This document shows, piece by piece, positions 36,801 through 42,104 of a stretch of 59,588 bases of DNA (its first letter is position 1; each line of letters starts with the position of its first letter). The notes below the pieces were generated by a model. The model made no database searches. It had not been told where the DNA came from and worked only from the letters and a program-made list of their open reading frames with translations. The DNA is taken from positions 1 through 59,588 of the forward strand of contig JANXYV010000001.1 in NCBI GenBank assembly GCA_025355875.1, in the 5' to 3' direction. A program made the position numbers and the translations under genes. The stretch comes from Prolixibacteraceae bacterium (GTDB lineage: Bacteria; Bacteroidota; Bacteroidia; Bacteroidales; Prolixibacteraceae).

Positions 36801-37913
36801 TCAAACCGTTTTCTTATAGCTAAGCACAGCCCACAGGTTAAATACAATTGCAAAGCTGCCGAGCGCGGTTAACTCAGTGGTGAGTTGAGAAATGTCGCTG
36901 CCTTTTAGATAGACCAGCCGCATTACCTGCATAAAATATTTTAACGGGTTGACGGTGGTGATGTATTGCGCCCACTGTGGCATACTGATCACCGGGGTGA
37001 ACAAGCCGCTCATCAGTATCAGTATCAACATAAAAAAATACATCACAAACATGGCTTGCTGCATGGTATCGGAGTAATTTGAAATGACTAGGCCGAGTCC
37101 TGAAACTCCAAGGATATAAATGGCTGCAAAAAAATAAATGGTGCTGAGATGTCCTTCAGGCCTTAACCCATATATCAGGTATGCAATTACAAAACTGATG
37201 GATAATACAATAAAACCGATGATCCAGTAAGGAAGCAGCTTGGAAATGATAAAAGTAAATCGGGTGATTGGCGTTACATTAATTTGTTCCATCGTTCCGG
37301 CTTCTTTTTCGCCAACAATATTCAATGCCGGAAGAAAACCGCAAAGCATGGTAAGCAACATCACCATCAATGCCGGAACCATAAATATTTTGTAACTGAG
37401 TTGTGGGTTAAACCTGAATTGCGTTACTGTATTTATAATTGGAATTGATGTTGCTGATGAAACCTGTATCCATTTCGCTCTGACCTGCGAAGAAAAATCG
37501 GCAACAATTCCGGAGAGGTAGGCGCTGCCCAAACCACCCTTTGTGCCGTTAACTGTATTTGCTGAAATCAATAGTTTTGAATGTTGTTCGCGAACTAAAT
37601 CTCTTTCGAAATTTGCAGGAATTTCAAGAATTAAATCGGCTTTATCCGTTTCGATGCTCTGCAGTGCATCTTTATAATTTGCTGATACATCAGTTAATCT
37701 AAAGTATCCCGAAGAAATTACTTTTTGGACTAACTGATTGGAGTAAACGCTGTGGTCGTTGTCGATCACACTCAGGTTAATATTTTTTATTTCGAAGTTT
37801 GCAGCCCATGGAAATACCAATAAAACCATGACCGGAAAAATCAATATGATTTTCGGCATGAATGAATTCCGAATAATTTGCTTAAACTCTTTTTCTAACA
37901 AATATTTTAACAT
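36801..37913 (-). CDS. ABC-2 type permease (YbhR-like)
   Basis: A 370-residue membrane protein. One N-terminal helix (about 22-40), a periplasmic domain of about 130 residues, and five or six C-terminal helices with ISMPQWAQYITTVNPLKYFMQVMRLVYLKG are the pattern of YbhR/YhhJ-type permeases. It is the last gene of the efflux operon and begins 5 bp after the other permease. It should form a heterodimer with that permease, energised by the two ATPases, and work with the HlyD and TolC proteins. Confidence 0.9.
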   Translation of the reverse strand: MLKYLLEKEFKQIIRNSFMPKIILIFPVMVLLVFPWAANFEIKNINLSVIDNDHSVYSNQLVQKVISSGYFRLTDVSANYKDALQSIETDKADLILEIPANFERDLVREQHSKLLISANTVNGTKGGLGSAYLSGIVADFSSQVRAKWIQVSSATSIPIINTVTQFRFNPQLSYKIFMVPALMVMLLTMLCGFLPALNIVGEKEAGTMEQINVTPITRFTFIISKLLPYWIIGFIVLSISFVIAYLIYGLRPEGHLSTIYFFAAIYILGVSGLGLVISNYSDTMQQAMFVMYFFMLILILMSGLFTPVISMPQWAQYITTVNPLKYFMQVMRLVYLKGSDISQLTTELTALGSFAIVFNLWAVLSYKKTV

Positions 37914-37918
37914 CGCTT

Positions 37919-39025
37919 TTACTCTAACCGGTTTTTAAACATTTTCAAACTTATCGCTAACAGCGCTAAAACCATAACACTGAGAATAACAATTTCAGGA
38001 ATTACAGATGATACTGGAGTTCCTTTAATCATGAGATTTTTTACCGCAATAATATACCACTTAGCAGGTATAATATTAGACAACCACTGCAACGGCACAG
38101 GCATATTTTCAATTGGAAACATCATTCCTGAAAGCAACATAACGGGCATCATAAACGCCATTCCTGAAATTAACATGGCTGCCATTTGAGTCTCGGTTAT
38201 ATTTGAAACCATTAATCCCAATGCAAGTGAAACAAAGATAAAAAGCATGGAAACCATAATGAGCCAGAACAGGCTTCCCGCAACAGGTACGCCCAAAACA
38301 AAAACCGACAACAACAAAACTGTAATCAGGTTGGTGAAGGAGAGAATAAAATAAGGTACTAATTTGGCAAGGATGATAAGTATTGGTTTCATTGGTGATA
38401 CCAGCAGCACTTCCATCGTTCCCATTTCCTTTTCGCGCACGATGGCAATAGATGTCATCATGGCGCAAATCAACATCAGGATCATTCCTAAAACACCGGG
38501 AACAAAATTATAGGCGCCTTTCATTTGCGGGTTGTAAAGAAATTTGGTTTCCGTACTTATCACGAAAGGAATATTTATTTGTGTCATCAAATCCTGCTGA
38601 AAGGATCCGATGATGGCGCTTGCATAATTGGTAAGTGTGGTAGCGGTATTCGGGTCGGCTGCATCGGCAATCAGTTGCACCTGAGCGTTGCCGCTGTGCA
38701 ATAAATTTTCGTTGAACCGTTCGCTGAAACAAATCACCATGCTTGTTTTTCCTTCGCGGAAAAGTGCTGTAATTTTATCAGGATTGTTCAGGATAGTTGT
38801 AACATTGAAATGTTCACTTGCTTTTATCCGTTCTATTATTCGCTCAGTAGCAATATCTTTTGACGGATCGCAAATGGCTATGTTGGCATTTTTAACCTCA
38901 GTGGTGATGGCGAATCCAAATAAAATAATCTGGATAATCGGCATTCCCAGCAGAATCAACATCGTTCGCCTATCACGAAAAATATGATGAAACTCTTTCA
39001 TAACAAATGTACCGAATTGTTTCAT
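37919..39025 (-). CDS. ABC-2 type permease (YbhS-like)
   Basis: A 368-residue permease with the same layout as its neighbour: MKEFHHIFRDRRTMLILLGMPIIQIILFGF at the N-terminus, a soluble middle part (about 50-170) and C-terminal helices with LLSGMMFPIENMPVPLQWLSNIIPAKWYI. That last segment is typical of ABC2_membrane_3 drug-efflux permeases. The gene starts 2 bp after the ATPase 2 stop. The transported compound is not known; homologues export drugs or membrane-active compounds. Confidence 0.9.
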   Translation of the reverse strand: MKQFGTFVMKEFHHIFRDRRTMLILLGMPIIQIILFGFAITTEVKNANIAICDPSKDIATERIIERIKASEHFNVTTILNNPDKITALFREGKTSMVICFSERFNENLLHSGNAQVQLIADAADPNTATTLTNYASAIIGSFQQDLMTQINIPFVISTETKFLYNPQMKGAYNFVPGVLGMILMLICAMMTSIAIVREKEMGTMEVLLVSPMKPILIILAKLVPYFILSFTNLITVLLLSVFVLGVPVAGSLFWLIMVSMLFIFVSLALGLMVSNITETQMAAMLISGMAFMMPVMLLSGMMFPIENMPVPLQWLSNIIPAKWYIIAVKNLMIKGTPVSSVIPEIVILSVMVLALLAISLKMFKNRLE

Positions 39026-39027
39026 GA

Positions 39028-39765
39028 TTAGTCGGATTTACGTGTTGCTTTACGCGCCAGTTGTTGAAACACCTCATCCATATTTGATGCATTAAATTCC
39101 TGTTTCAGATTTTTGGGAGTATCCAATGCTTCAATTTTACCATCTACCATTATCGAAATACGGTTGCAATATTCCGCTTCGTCCATGTAGTGAGTTGTAA
39201 CAAAAATGGTGATTCCGTCGGCGGCCGCTTCATAAATAAGTTCCCAGAATTGTCTGCGTGTTACTGGGTCAACACCGCCGGTTGGCTCATCCAGAAATAC
39301 CACTTTTGGATGGTGAAGAATGGAAACTGAAAATGAAAGTTTTTGCTTCCAGCCCAATGGCAGGTCTTTCACTAAGGTTTCGCGTTCCTGTTCAAAATTC
39401 AACCGTTGCAGCAACTCGGTTGTTTTAATGCTGATTTGGTTTTCGCTAACTCCATAAATACCTGCAAACAACCGGATGTTCTCCCACACTTTCAAATCGT
39501 TGTAAAGAGAAAATTTCTGACTCATGTAGCCGATATTTTTTTTGATGTCTTCAGGATGCTTTTTGATGTCAAAACCTGCAACGCTTCCTTCGCCTGAAGT
39601 GGGTTTGCTCAATCCGCAAAACATACGCATGGCAGTGGTTTTTCCCGCACCATTGGCTCCCAGGAAACCAAATATCTCTCCTTTCTCCACTTCAAATGAA
39701 ATGTGATCAACGGCAGTGAATGTACCGAAACGCTTTACTAAATTTTTGGCTTCAATTACTTTCAT
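39028..39765 (-). CDS. ABC transporter ATPase 2 (YbhF C-terminal-half equivalent)
   Basis: A 245-residue ATPase. Walker A is GANGAGKTT (about 35-43), Walker B is VVFLDEPTGG and the switch His is in VTTHYMDEAEYC. The signature motif is LPLGWKQKL rather than LSGGQ, a variant seen in this transporter subfamily. Just upstream on the coding strand, a preserved copy of the ATPase 1 3' end would overlap this start by 4 bp (CAATGA), which shows that the two ATPase genes were once directly coupled. The BRO-N/DinD guest now separates them. Confidence 0.9.
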   Translation of the reverse strand: MKVIEAKNLVKRFGTFTAVDHISFEVEKGEIFGFLGANGAGKTTAMRMFCGLSKPTSGEGSVAGFDIKKHPEDIKKNIGYMSQKFSLYNDLKVWENIRLFAGIYGVSENQISIKTTELLQRLNFEQERETLVKDLPLGWKQKLSFSVSILHHPKVVFLDEPTGGVDPVTRRQFWELIYEAAADGITIFVTTHYMDEAEYCNRISIMVDGKIEALDTPKNLKQEFNASNMDEVFQQLARKATRKSD

Positions 39766-39776
39766 TGTTTGCCGGG

Positions 39777-39803
39777 GTTTGAATTTTCTATACCAAAATC
39801 CAT
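39777..39803 (-). repeat. 27-bp direct repeat, copy B (relict ATPase 1 3' end)
   Basis: On the minus strand it encodes MDFGIENSN in the frame of ATPase 1, continuing PGKQ and a stop that overlaps the ATPase 2 start. It matches 40672-40698 with one mismatch. The guest gene ends 2 bp before it. Confidence 0.85.
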
Positions 39804-39805
39804 AT

Positions 39806-40633
39806 TTAGTTAGTTAGGTTCTTTTGTGATTTTTCAGGAGGAAGAAAGTTTTCCTGAGTGATCACTTTCTTTCCGGTTTTTTGTTCTAAAGCCAATCGCG
39901 CATCTTTTGCAATCTTGCCACCTTTCTTACCTGCCACCGCATTTTGTGCTACCCCTTTTGCCTTATCTGTTTCGGCTATTTGACGAGTAGACAATTCAGC
40001 AAGAGCTGTAAAAATGAGTTCAGCTTCGCTCATGTGGTCACGAAGGTTTTGCGATTTCAATCCTTTTAAATCTTTATGGTTTTTAACTGTTAAGCCAGTC
40101 CATTCCTGGTGAATGATATTGGTAAGAAATGCAAATTCATCCGATTTCTGAACACCACTCTCTTTCCAATAATCGGTAAGATTGTTTCTTGTCTCTTGCC
40201 CCGTCATTCGCTGTTGAATCCACTTTGCGCTTCTGCCTGATTTCTGCCAGCTCTCTCTTGCCCTATCCAAGCTTATTTCAGGGTCGTGAATTTCCTGCAT
40301 CCGTTCATAGCCGACTTTGGCTAACCATTGTTTAAATGGCTCGGCATTAGGTGATGGGATGGATTGGATAAGCCTCAATAAGTTGGGGGTGTCAAGACAA
40401 TCTGTTGCATATTTCTTTCCATCTGAAGCTTCAAATTTCAGTTGTACGATATTTTCGTACAACTGACTTCCCTCGTGGGTCAACTTCTTTTTAAGGTCGG
40501 TCCAGTAGCGTTTGGGAATACTACTTTCAGTTAAAATCTCTATCACATCAATAACAGAAAAGTACCATGTTTCAGTTGCTTCGTCCCAATGAGTGCGAAC
40601 CCTTTTGCTCTCAAATAATTTAATATTTTCCAT
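39806..40633 (-). CDS. BRO-N / DinD-like protein, guest gene
   Basis: A 275-residue protein. The N-terminal 110 residues resemble BRO-N/phage antirepressor domains (WYFSVIDVIEILTES, DTPNLLRLIQSIPSPNAEPFKQWLAKVGYERM). The C-terminal half resembles DinD, the DNA-damage-inducible protein (IHQEWTGLTVKNHKDLKGLK, DHMSEAELIFTALAE, VAGKKGGKIAKDARLALE). DinD in E. coli affects RecA; the role of this homologue is unknown. It lies in the same orientation as the efflux genes, between the two ATPase genes, where it has no evident function for transport. Its ends coincide with 27-bp direct repeats. Confidence 0.8.
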   Translation of the reverse strand: MENIKLFESKRVRTHWDEATETWYFSVIDVIEILTESSIPKRYWTDLKKKLTHEGSQLYENIVQLKFEASDGKKYATDCLDTPNLLRLIQSIPSPNAEPFKQWLAKVGYERMQEIHDPEISLDRARESWQKSGRSAKWIQQRMTGQETRNNLTDYWKESGVQKSDEFAFLTNIIHQEWTGLTVKNHKDLKGLKSQNLRDHMSEAELIFTALAELSTRQIAETDKAKGVAQNAVAGKKGGKIAKDARLALEQKTGKKVITQENFLPPEKSQKNLTN

Positions 40634-40665
40634 AGTTTTTGCTTTTAAGCAATAGCAATTTGTGG

Positions 40666-41631
40666 CTACTTGTTTGAATTTTCCATACCAAAATCCATAA
40701 AGCAGTCTTCGATGTTTGGCTGCGCCTTCTCAATTAAAATTCCCTTATGACCTTTTTCAGTTAAATACGATTCCAGTTCTTTCATTGAAAAATTTTCGTT
40801 GCCAATGGTAACATGATGAGCAGCGCCAAAAGCGAAACAAGACAGAACGTGTTTGTTCATCCTCAAGTCGGTTATAAGCTTGGGCAGGTTATTACTCTGC
40901 ACCGACCATAATATTTTTCCGAAATCATTGATAATGTTTTGAGGTGTATCTATTTTCAGGATTTTTCCCATATTGATTAAAGCAATGCGGTCGCACAAAT
41001 TAGCTTCATCCATGTACGGTGTTGAAACAAGAATGGTGATGCCCTGATGTTTCAGATTTTTCAACATTCCCCAGAACTCTTTGCGCGAAACAGGGTCAAC
41101 TCCCGTTGTAGGTTCATCAAGAAACAATACTGATGGCTTGTGAATTAACGCGCAGCTCAATGCAAGTTTCTGTTTCATTCCTCCGGAAAGCTTTCCTGCT
41201 CTTCGGTCTTTGAATGGTTCAATCTGGCTGTATATATCTTTTATCAAATAATAATTTTTCTCTATGCTTGTATTGAACACTGTTGCAAACAAATTGAGGT
41301 TTTCTTCAACGGTCATATCCTGATAGAGAGAAAACCTGCCAGGCATGTATCCAATGCTGCCTCGTATTTTTTTATAATCTTTCACAACATCCATTCCGTC
41401 AACTGTAGCAGTGCCGCTATTCGCAACAAGTAAAGTAGTCAGCATTCGTATAAGGGTTGTTTTGCCAGCGCCATCGGGACCAATCAGTCCAAATATTTCT
41501 CCGGCATTTACCTCGAACGAAACATTATCCACAGCAACAACTTTTTCCTTGCCATAACTTTTGGTTAAACCAGTTACTTTAATTGACAATTGAGAATTGA
41601 CAATGGACAGTTTAGAGTTGACAATTGACAT
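40666..41631 (-). CDS. ABC transporter ATPase 1 (YbhF N-terminal-half equivalent)
   Basis: A 321-residue ATPase. Walker A is GPDGAGKTT (with Asp in place of Asn), the signature is LSGGMKQKL, Walker B is VLFLDEPTTG, and the C-terminal extension (about 250-321) ends in EDCFMDFGMENSNK. Residues 1-18 (MSIVNSKLSIVNSQLSIK) are encoded by the end of the four-helix-bundle cassette and by its repeats; the family sequence starts at VTGLTKSYG. So the original start was replaced. The last residues were also altered by the DinD-like cassette. It starts 2 bp after the stop of the four-helix-bundle gene, so it is translationally coupled. Confidence 0.9.
   Translation of the reverse strand: MSIVNSKLSIVNSQLSIKVTGLTKSYGKEKVVAVDNVSFEVNAGEIFGLIGPDGAGKTTLIRMLTTLLVANSGTATVDGMDVVKDYKKIRGSIGYMPGRFSLYQDMTVEENLNLFATVFNTSIEKNYYLIKDIYSQIEPFKDRRAGKLSGGMKQKLALSCALIHKPSVLFLDEPTTGVDPVSRKEFWGMLKNLKHQGITILVSTPYMDEANLCDRIALINMGKILKIDTPQNIINDFGKILWSVQSNNLPKLITDLRMNKHVLSCFAFGAAHHVTIGNENFSMKELESYLTEKGHKGILIEKAQPNIEDCFMDFGMENSNK
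40672..40698 (-). repeat. 27-bp direct repeat, copy A (in ATPase 1)
   Basis: It encodes MDFGMENSN at the C-terminus of ATPase 1 and matches 39777-39803 with a single base difference. It marks the upstream edge of the DinD-like guest cassette. Confidence 0.85.
41581..41630. repeat. Reiterated TTGACAATT words, left flank
   Basis: At least four near-repeats of TTGACAATTGAG / TTGACAATGGACAG occur in 50 bp. They are read as the repeated peptide SIVNSKLSIVNSQLSI in ATPase 1. The same words in both orientations fill 41999-42104. Confidence 0.7.
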
Positions 41632-41633
41632 AA

Positions 41634-41990
41634 TTACCTTCCTAAAGAATTTTTTGTTGATTTTACAATGCTGATTAGTAGTTTTATTACTTCCGAACAG
41701 TCATTATGTATTGATAGATATTCTTGTTGTGATATGTAATCAGTATCTTTCAGCAACATTAACCAATATTCAGTTTCGTTTGCTTCTTTCAATGCAATAT
41801 TCATTTTGTTTAAAAAATCTGCCTTCGATTGCCCGTGTTCCGCCTCACGTACCAATGCGCCAATTGCAGTTCCACTTCTTAATGTTTGTTTCGAAAGCAC
41901 AAATTCCTTTTTATCAGTAGTTAATACCTTATATAAATTCACAATGCGAATAGCAAATGTGTAAGATTTTATAGCGATTACATTTTCCAT
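41634..41990 (-). CDS. Four-helix-bundle protein (23S rRNA IVS-type), guest gene
   Basis: A 118-residue, all-helical protein with the family core SGTAIGALVREAEHGQSKADF and ALKEANETEYWLMLLKDTDY. The family was first seen in intervening sequences of 23S rRNA genes and is related to the Avd protein of diversity-generating retroelements; it forms small oligomers and may bind nucleic acid. Here it lies inside a drug-efflux operon, in the operon's direction, between HlyD and ATPase 1. It is bounded by inverted repeats. There is no rRNA and no reverse transcriptase in the window, so a role as a self-contained mobile gene is an inference. Confidence 0.88.
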   Translation of the reverse strand: MENVIAIKSYTFAIRIVNLYKVLTTDKKEFVLSKQTLRSGTAIGALVREAEHGQSKADFLNKMNIALKEANETEYWLMLLKDTDYISQQEYLSIHNDCSEVIKLLISIVKSTKNSLGR

Positions 41991-41998
41991 AGCTAATC

Positions 41999-42104
41999 AG
42001 TTGACAATGGATAATGGACAGTTGACAATTATCCTTTTTCCATTATTCATTGTTCATTAAAAATATTTTTCATTGTCACTTGTCCATTGAGAATTGTCAA
42101 TTAA
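41999..42104. repeat. Reiterated TTGACAATGGA words, right flank
   Basis: TTGACAATGGATAATGGACA is followed by TTGACAATTATCC. The same words then recur in reverse orientation (CCATTATTCATTGTTCATTA, CATTGTCACTTGTCCATTGA, GAATTGTCAATT). The block is roughly a long imperfect palindrome around 42042-42070. Confidence 0.65.

Follow-up and report, generated by a model that had tools for sequence, protein, structure and literature searches.

A Bro-N/DinD-like gene bounded by a duplicated host gene end in an ABC transporter operon, and direct repeats around its homologues

Restriction-modification genes are reported to insert into chromosomes without a known mobile element, in what is called insertion with long target duplication, and their insertions to carry long direct target duplications of variable length, of the order of 100 bp (Nobusato 2000; Furuta 2010; both as cited by others). 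For Arabidopsis, flanking repeats longer than 15 bp have been counted at 22 of 126 genes that had transposed (17.5%) and at 6 of 102 controls (PMC2869330). Our account of the literature draws on PMC1643837, PMC3874152, PMC3154945, PMC2869330, PMC3031569, PMC11708052 and PMC5436757. The locus described here shares with the restriction-modification insertions the presence of direct repeats of host sequence, long and variable in length, around a gene. The cargo differs, however: there it is a restriction-modification gene, here a single Bro-N/DinD-like gene, with RhuM and DUF4143 genes as less certain further examples; the median repeat here is 53.5 bp, with 28 bp at the focal locus, and four loci carry a third copy. 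The share of repeat-flanked genes, near 16%, is close to that in Arabidopsis, but the latter is a eukaryote, for which recombination of circles has been proposed (PMC2869330). An earlier interpretation of this DNA from its letters alone (hereafter the sequence-only reading) took the length of the duplication to point to an insertion route, other than that of the usual transposons, which spares the host. Our results support such a route but not its being new in kind: long, variable target duplication is already known for restriction-modification genes, which the present case resembles with a different cargo, sometimes stacked at one site. Among titles and the beginnings of abstracts in the open-licence literature searched we found no account of DinD-like or RhuM genes with duplications at their flanks; that literature likewise yielded no mention of PDC-S13 and, by title, nothing on gene insertion that brings DinD and DdrC together.

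The locus lies in a stretch of 59,588 nucleotides from a Prolixibacteraceae bacterium (contig JANXYV010000001.1), which we call the window. On the minus strand, ATPase 1 is followed by the guest gene, ATPase 2 and two ABC-2 permeases, all with clear Pfam matches (Table 1). The placement of a Bro-N/DinD-like gene between two ATPase genes, as originally proposed, is borne out by a 275-aa open reading frame matching Bro-N (PF02498, E 1e-10). The direct repeats around it had been given as 27 bp with one mismatch; the single mismatch stands, whereas the length is 28 bp, with 27 of 28 positions identical.

Table 1. Coordinates of the features at the guest locus (window positions).
Feature	Position	Strand	Remarks
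ABC transporter ATPase 1, upstream host gene	40666..41631	-	ABC_tran E 4e-30, translation; end now MDFGMENSNK
28-bp direct repeat, upstream copy	40672..40699	-	inside the ATPase 1 3' end
Insert, 867 bp	39805..40671	-	38 bp leader, guest gene and 1 bp past the stop
Guest gene, 275 aa, Bro-N/DinD-like, PADLOC PDC-S13	39806..40633	-	predicted fold resembles DdrC
28-bp direct repeat, downstream copy	39777..39804	-	with the following bases, 13-codon ORF MDFGIENSNPGKQ-stop
ABC transporter ATPase 2, downstream host gene	39028..39765	-	ABC_tran E 2.5e-27
ABC-2 permease, next after ATPase 2	37919..39025	-	ABC2_membrane_3
Second ABC-2 permease, next in line	36801..37913	-	ABC2_membrane_3

The upstream copy encodes ...CFMDFGMENSNK-stop, which is the end of ATPase 1, while the frame of the downstream copy, MDFGIENSNPGKQ, runs from an ATG to a TGA that overlaps the ATG of ATPase 2. 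It follows from the two reading frames that the host end PGKQ was swapped for K within the gene and that the old end was kept before ATPase 2. Both points agree with what had been claimed, namely that the downstream copy preserves the old frame to PGKQ-stop and overlaps the ATPase 2 start, and that the guest altered only the last host residues and supplied a stop. The GC content of the guest (0.406) is unremarkable beside that of its neighbours (0.388-0.416). We scored direct repeats without gaps, at +1 for a match and -2 for a mismatch, with a threshold of 20 and a requirement for 300 bp on each side of the gene. The window repeat scores 25, while in a shuffled control, in which the upstream flanks of guests were crossed with the downstream flanks of different guests, 0 of 1499 pairs reached 20 (maximum 19), and the window repeat is therefore not a product of chance. 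The flanking duplication around the guest is well supported.

The guest protein scores 42.6 bits against Bro-N, above the gathering cut-off of 25.6, and 21.2 bits against the DinD equivalog NF008573, under the cut-off of 242, so that we call it only DinD-like and claim no orthology with DinD; the similarity to E. coli DinD is weak and spans the C-terminal half (E 1.5e-4). The PADLOC model PDC-S13, a candidate defence family, matches residues 2-272, nearly the full length, with an E value of 1.2e-123, and matches all 57 sequences in an alignment of the guest with 56 homologues, in which 39 columns are invariant. A sequence search of the PDB returned no solved structure matching the guest. Its predicted structure (mean pLDDT 90, pTM 0.70) was compared by Foldseek, and the sole PDB matches with E under 0.001 were six chains of DdrC (7udi, 8u0g, 7qvb), with E values of 1e-7 to 3e-5, a probability of 1.0 and 14-16% identity. 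TM scores of 0.29-0.53, together with a high rmsd, indicate that parts of the guest and of DdrC fit better than the whole chain, and the predicted fold resembles that of DdrC of Deinococcus radiodurans in those parts. Among named viral proteins, the model is matched chiefly by those with Bro-N, KilA-N and repressor domains. DdrC itself binds DNA in both single- and double-stranded form, and it can anneal strands and close linear DNA into circles (PMC5436757). From the predicted fold we infer that the guest may act on DNA as DdrC does. Later papers on DdrC reportedly deal with pairs of single-strand breaks.

The dinD gene of E. coli was considered as an empty-site test and set aside; a match to the yicC-yicG region was obtained in 5374 of 5426 genomes, and some lack dinD. 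It is uninformative on insertion because the flanking repeat score in K-12 is at most 11, unlike that of the window guest, and because the spacers with and without dinD are alike, by eye, only in the part next to yicG. Strains without dinD have a shorter and partly different yicC-yicG spacer (L226, L227).

Another way to view the locus is through relatives of the operon that lack the guest. The operon was searched for in 61 genomes, including the window's own, of which 56 matched; 20 fetched stretches and six earlier loci made 26 that were examined, and both ATPase genes were identified in 23. The gaps between ATPase 1 and ATPase 2 in these 23 range from -2 to 549 bp and leave no room for the guest, which is absent from this site in all of them. 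The sequence-only reading had proposed an ancestral state in which the ATPase genes overlapped, and had noted that a duplication present in guest-less relatives would speak against its interpretation. Overlapping or near-abutting genes are indeed seen, with gaps of -2 (L032), 8 (L014), 9 (L015) and 20 bp (L129), and the duplicated end of ATPase 1 occurs in 0 of the 23, with a best score of 10 compared with 25 in the window. All 23 are, at 58-65% identity in ATPase 1, too diverged for a base-by-base comparison with an empty allele, and none provides one at that level. In six relatives (L122, L124, L026, L136, L133, L127) other small genes, presumably four-helix-bundle-like and GxxExxY-like, occupy the ATPase gap and are flanked by inverted or tandem repeats. 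For the locus of genome G073, relatives gave guest and epimerase matches in the match table and no close empty site.

We then extended the repeat analysis to the DinD-like family, using a sample that combined the 80 best of 239 homologous loci found in named genomes with 30 further loci and 60 stretches picked by hand from the order, in which 82 of 295 genomes matched; loci from the searches of the window's genome and operon were added. Once identical copies had been removed, the sample comprised 176 loci with 185 guest genes, of which 176 had sufficient flanks and were scored; it is non-random. Direct repeats scoring at least 20 flank 28 of the 176 homologues, compared with 5 of 243 neighbour genes at the same loci (p 1.8e-7), and three of those five control genes are themselves RhuM (L115, L137) or AAA/DUF4143 (L037) genes. 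A first pass over part of the set, at a score of 24, gave 14 of 91 guests against 2 of 197 others. The remaining 148 homologues have no repeat of score 20, and in the window's own genus one of 27 other guest genes is repeat-flanked (L255). Thus, the family copies do show flanking repeats, the reverse of what had been named as counting against the original claim, although some of these are dispersed and are not target duplications. We conclude that the excess of repeats in the family is real, but that its size falls below 28/176 once dispersed repeats are removed.

Among the 28 repeat-flanked loci the repeats are 21-129 bp long and at least 95% identical in 12; the insert measures 867-1247 bp (median 989), and the downstream copy starts 0-16 bp past the guest stop in 13. 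Grouped by identity to the nearest non-syntenic relative, repeats were found in 4 of 24 guests at 84% or above and in 7/36, 12/66, 5/61 and 2/6 in the groups that follow, while guests with no such relative had none (0/9). The share is therefore independent of this identity and does not rise among close relatives.

The repeats of the 28 loci are mutually dissimilar, except for those of L157 and L220, both from genome G101. Several lie at the 3' ends of host genes: 79 bp of pheT-beta (L076), 92 bp of a ComM-type gene with a Mg-chelatase Pfam match, which we take to be ComM (L093), 54 bp of a DUF2130 gene (L057), 46 bp of a hydroxyacid dehydrogenase gene (L037) and 32 bp at the end of a tRNA-Pro (L080). 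At L189 a 70-bp repeat corresponds to the start of an epimerase-type gene, the frame of which is broken past the copy, and at L046 a short open reading frame begins with the 52-bp copy and is followed by a RhuM fragment. Other repeats are intergenic, and some of these are not target duplications. Uniqueness across the genome was checked for two of the 28: the 121-bp repeat of L178 (1271-1391) is one of a dispersed family that gives 25 matches across genome G133, while the L189 repeat has only its two copies in its own genome. The repeat of L220 overlaps a group II intron match and that of L157 is similar to it, and the copies at L042 are 76% identical.

Four of the 28 loci possess a third copy, upstream of the other two, and another gene is thereby enclosed between copies. 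The order at L037 is an AAA/DUF4143 gene followed by the DinD-like gene, and at L159 a HEPN with a nucleotidyltransferase followed by the DinD-like gene; the stacks at L171 and L045 consist of a gene for a secreted protein and of an unknown gene, respectively, each followed by DinD-like and RhuM genes. A shared 5' leader was considered as an element end and rejected, as it is present only in L045 and L046. In L046, a 191-aa gene without a Pfam or PADLOC match (1998-2573) has a repeat of score 66 around it and is possibly a new guest family. Further long direct repeats occur near DinD-like loci, at L068 (3878-3925/6235-6282), L078 (7-63/882-938) and L089 (5269-5367/6562-6660).

Pairs of closely related guests at unrelated sites allow the moving unit to be delimited. 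Homology ends 49 bp before and 24 bp after the gene in L045/L046 (90% DNA identity), 63 and 6 bp in L067/L070 (95%), 90 and 0 bp in L169/L180 (86%), and 1 and 13 bp in L173/L183 (85%), whereas in contrast pairs such as L011/L017 the likeness persists for about 1 kb on each side. Neither guest of the L067/L070 pair has a flanking repeat. Since pairs at 85-95% identity cease to be alike no more than about 100 bp from the gene, it is the bare gene that moves, and dN/dS values of 0.04-0.30 in six such pairs show that it is under selection while doing so.

We therefore favour the reading, with a probability of roughly 0.62, that the guest is a horizontally mobile bare single gene captured at the 3' end of ATPase 1 with a 28-bp target duplication. 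A bare piece of 0.87 kb would have been taken up at this end and the 28 bp there duplicated, and the duplicate would have restored the spacing and a short frame before ATPase 2, such that both host genes stayed readable. A pair of nicks, one in each strand and tens of bases from each other, may have been held open, with guest DNA joined into the opened nicks and the gaps then filled, which would generate the duplication. Selection would retain those insertions that are harmless to both neighbours, and a guest flanked by host copies could subsequently pass to relatives, or be joined by further guests at its site, through homologous recombination at the host sequence. The insertion route is likely common to the guest and to restriction-modification genes. 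A single uniform route is nonetheless doubtful, because most homologues are repeat-free, the repeat share is independent of identity and the L067/L070 pair is repeat-free.

Alternatively, the repeat could be a crossover scar, left when a circle carrying the guest and a copy of a host gene end or of a dispersed repeat recombined through flanking homology. The three-copy loci, with their copies around different genes, fit repeated homologous entry, as do the dispersed L178 repeat and the intron-like repeats shared by L157 and L220, and an excision and reinsertion model acting through flanking repeats has been proposed for Arabidopsis genes (PMC2869330). However, recombination of this type leaves the first entry at a new site unexplained; most of the repeats are mutually dissimilar, that of L189 is unique to its own site, and none of the 23 relatives has the guest at the window site. 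A length of 28 bp is also short for ordinary homologous recombination, and we regard this account as rather unlikely.

As to what would hold the nicks in the capture we favour, it is conceivable, although a long shot, that the Bro-N/DinD-like protein does so itself, as a DdrC-like bridging and annealing protein, and inserts its own gene. If so, such genes would be one-gene mobile elements without a recombinase, and the nick spacing would set the duplication length.

Very unlikely, in our estimation, is movement of the gene by a decayed transposon or by a trans-acting transposase or integrase, with the repeats as the usual target duplication or att sites. The 3' end of a tRNA is a usual integrase target, and the L080 repeat sits at one. 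Against this, inverted repeats at guest ends score at least 16 in 1 of 176 guests and at least 20 in 0 of 176, and the guests have no insert ends in common by eye. Nor do the repeats have the short, fixed length of a transposon's target duplication, being 21-129 bp where found, although repeats below about 20 bp would escape the method. Homologues are, moreover, rare on plasmids (14 of 72,556 records) and phages (4 of 50,697 records). About as unlikely is a duplication older than the guest, in which the gene end already formed a short tandem repeat and the guest entered later between its copies: some loci do carry extra local repeat copies, but none of the 23 guest-less relatives has the duplication, and repeats would need to favour guests over neighbour genes (28/176 against 5/243).

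Other families of potential guests were analysed in the same way, each from 30 loci. Repeats scoring at least 20 flank 4 of 26 RhuM genes and 4 of 21 DUF4143 genes, compared with 0 of 28 epimerase genes, the control family. About half of the RhuM and DUF4143 repeats are weak, and those of L285 and L296 (RhuM) and of L362 and L363 (DUF4143) appear by eye to be palindromic, hairpin-bound or tandem-like. Pooling the guest families gives 36 of 223 against 5 of 271 controls, and 32 of 223 when these four doubtful cases are removed (p 1.2e-7). A four-helix-bundle comparison family was dropped: a usable gene was present in 6 of 30 loci, 5 were analysed and 1 had direct and inverted repeats. Genome G039 has 29 DUF4143 ATPase matches in 2.6 Mb, a striking multiplication.

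PADLOC assigns the three RhuM genes tested to PDC-S05, the one DUF4143 gene tested to PDC-S01 and the nucleotidyltransferase to PDC-S09; by their names, these families and PDC-S13 are single-gene defence candidates. Candidate defence genes are often found as lone genes in chromosomes. The excess of this footprint in PDC-S13 and, less firmly, in PDC-S05 and PDC-S01 points to capture of bare genes with target duplication. It would appear that a gene can travel bare, with no transposon, and leave its neighbours readable, and the window provides an example of a gene entering a tight operon in this manner. The significance of the footprint is that it can be counted, and hence yields a testable list of sites for lone candidate defence genes, while the DdrC-like predicted fold, if functional, would offer a handle on the enzyme side of long target duplication, a process for which the literature consulted names no enzyme.

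The window's genome contains two more DinD-like genes, arranged head to tail and 2 bases apart (L006; contig C42, 656-1477 and 1480-2322), and no long flanking repeats were found around this tandem. Just upstream of ATPase 1 in the window lies a four-helix-bundle gene (23S_rRNA_IVP, 41634-41990, minus strand), flanked by runs of a TTGACAATTG-type repeat at 41584-41631 and 41998-42100. The start of ATPase 1, MSIVNSKLSIVNSQLS, seems to be derived from the TTGACAATTG-type repeat; in 17 of 23 relatives similarity to ATPase 1 does not start before residue 14, and in 10 it starts at residue 17.
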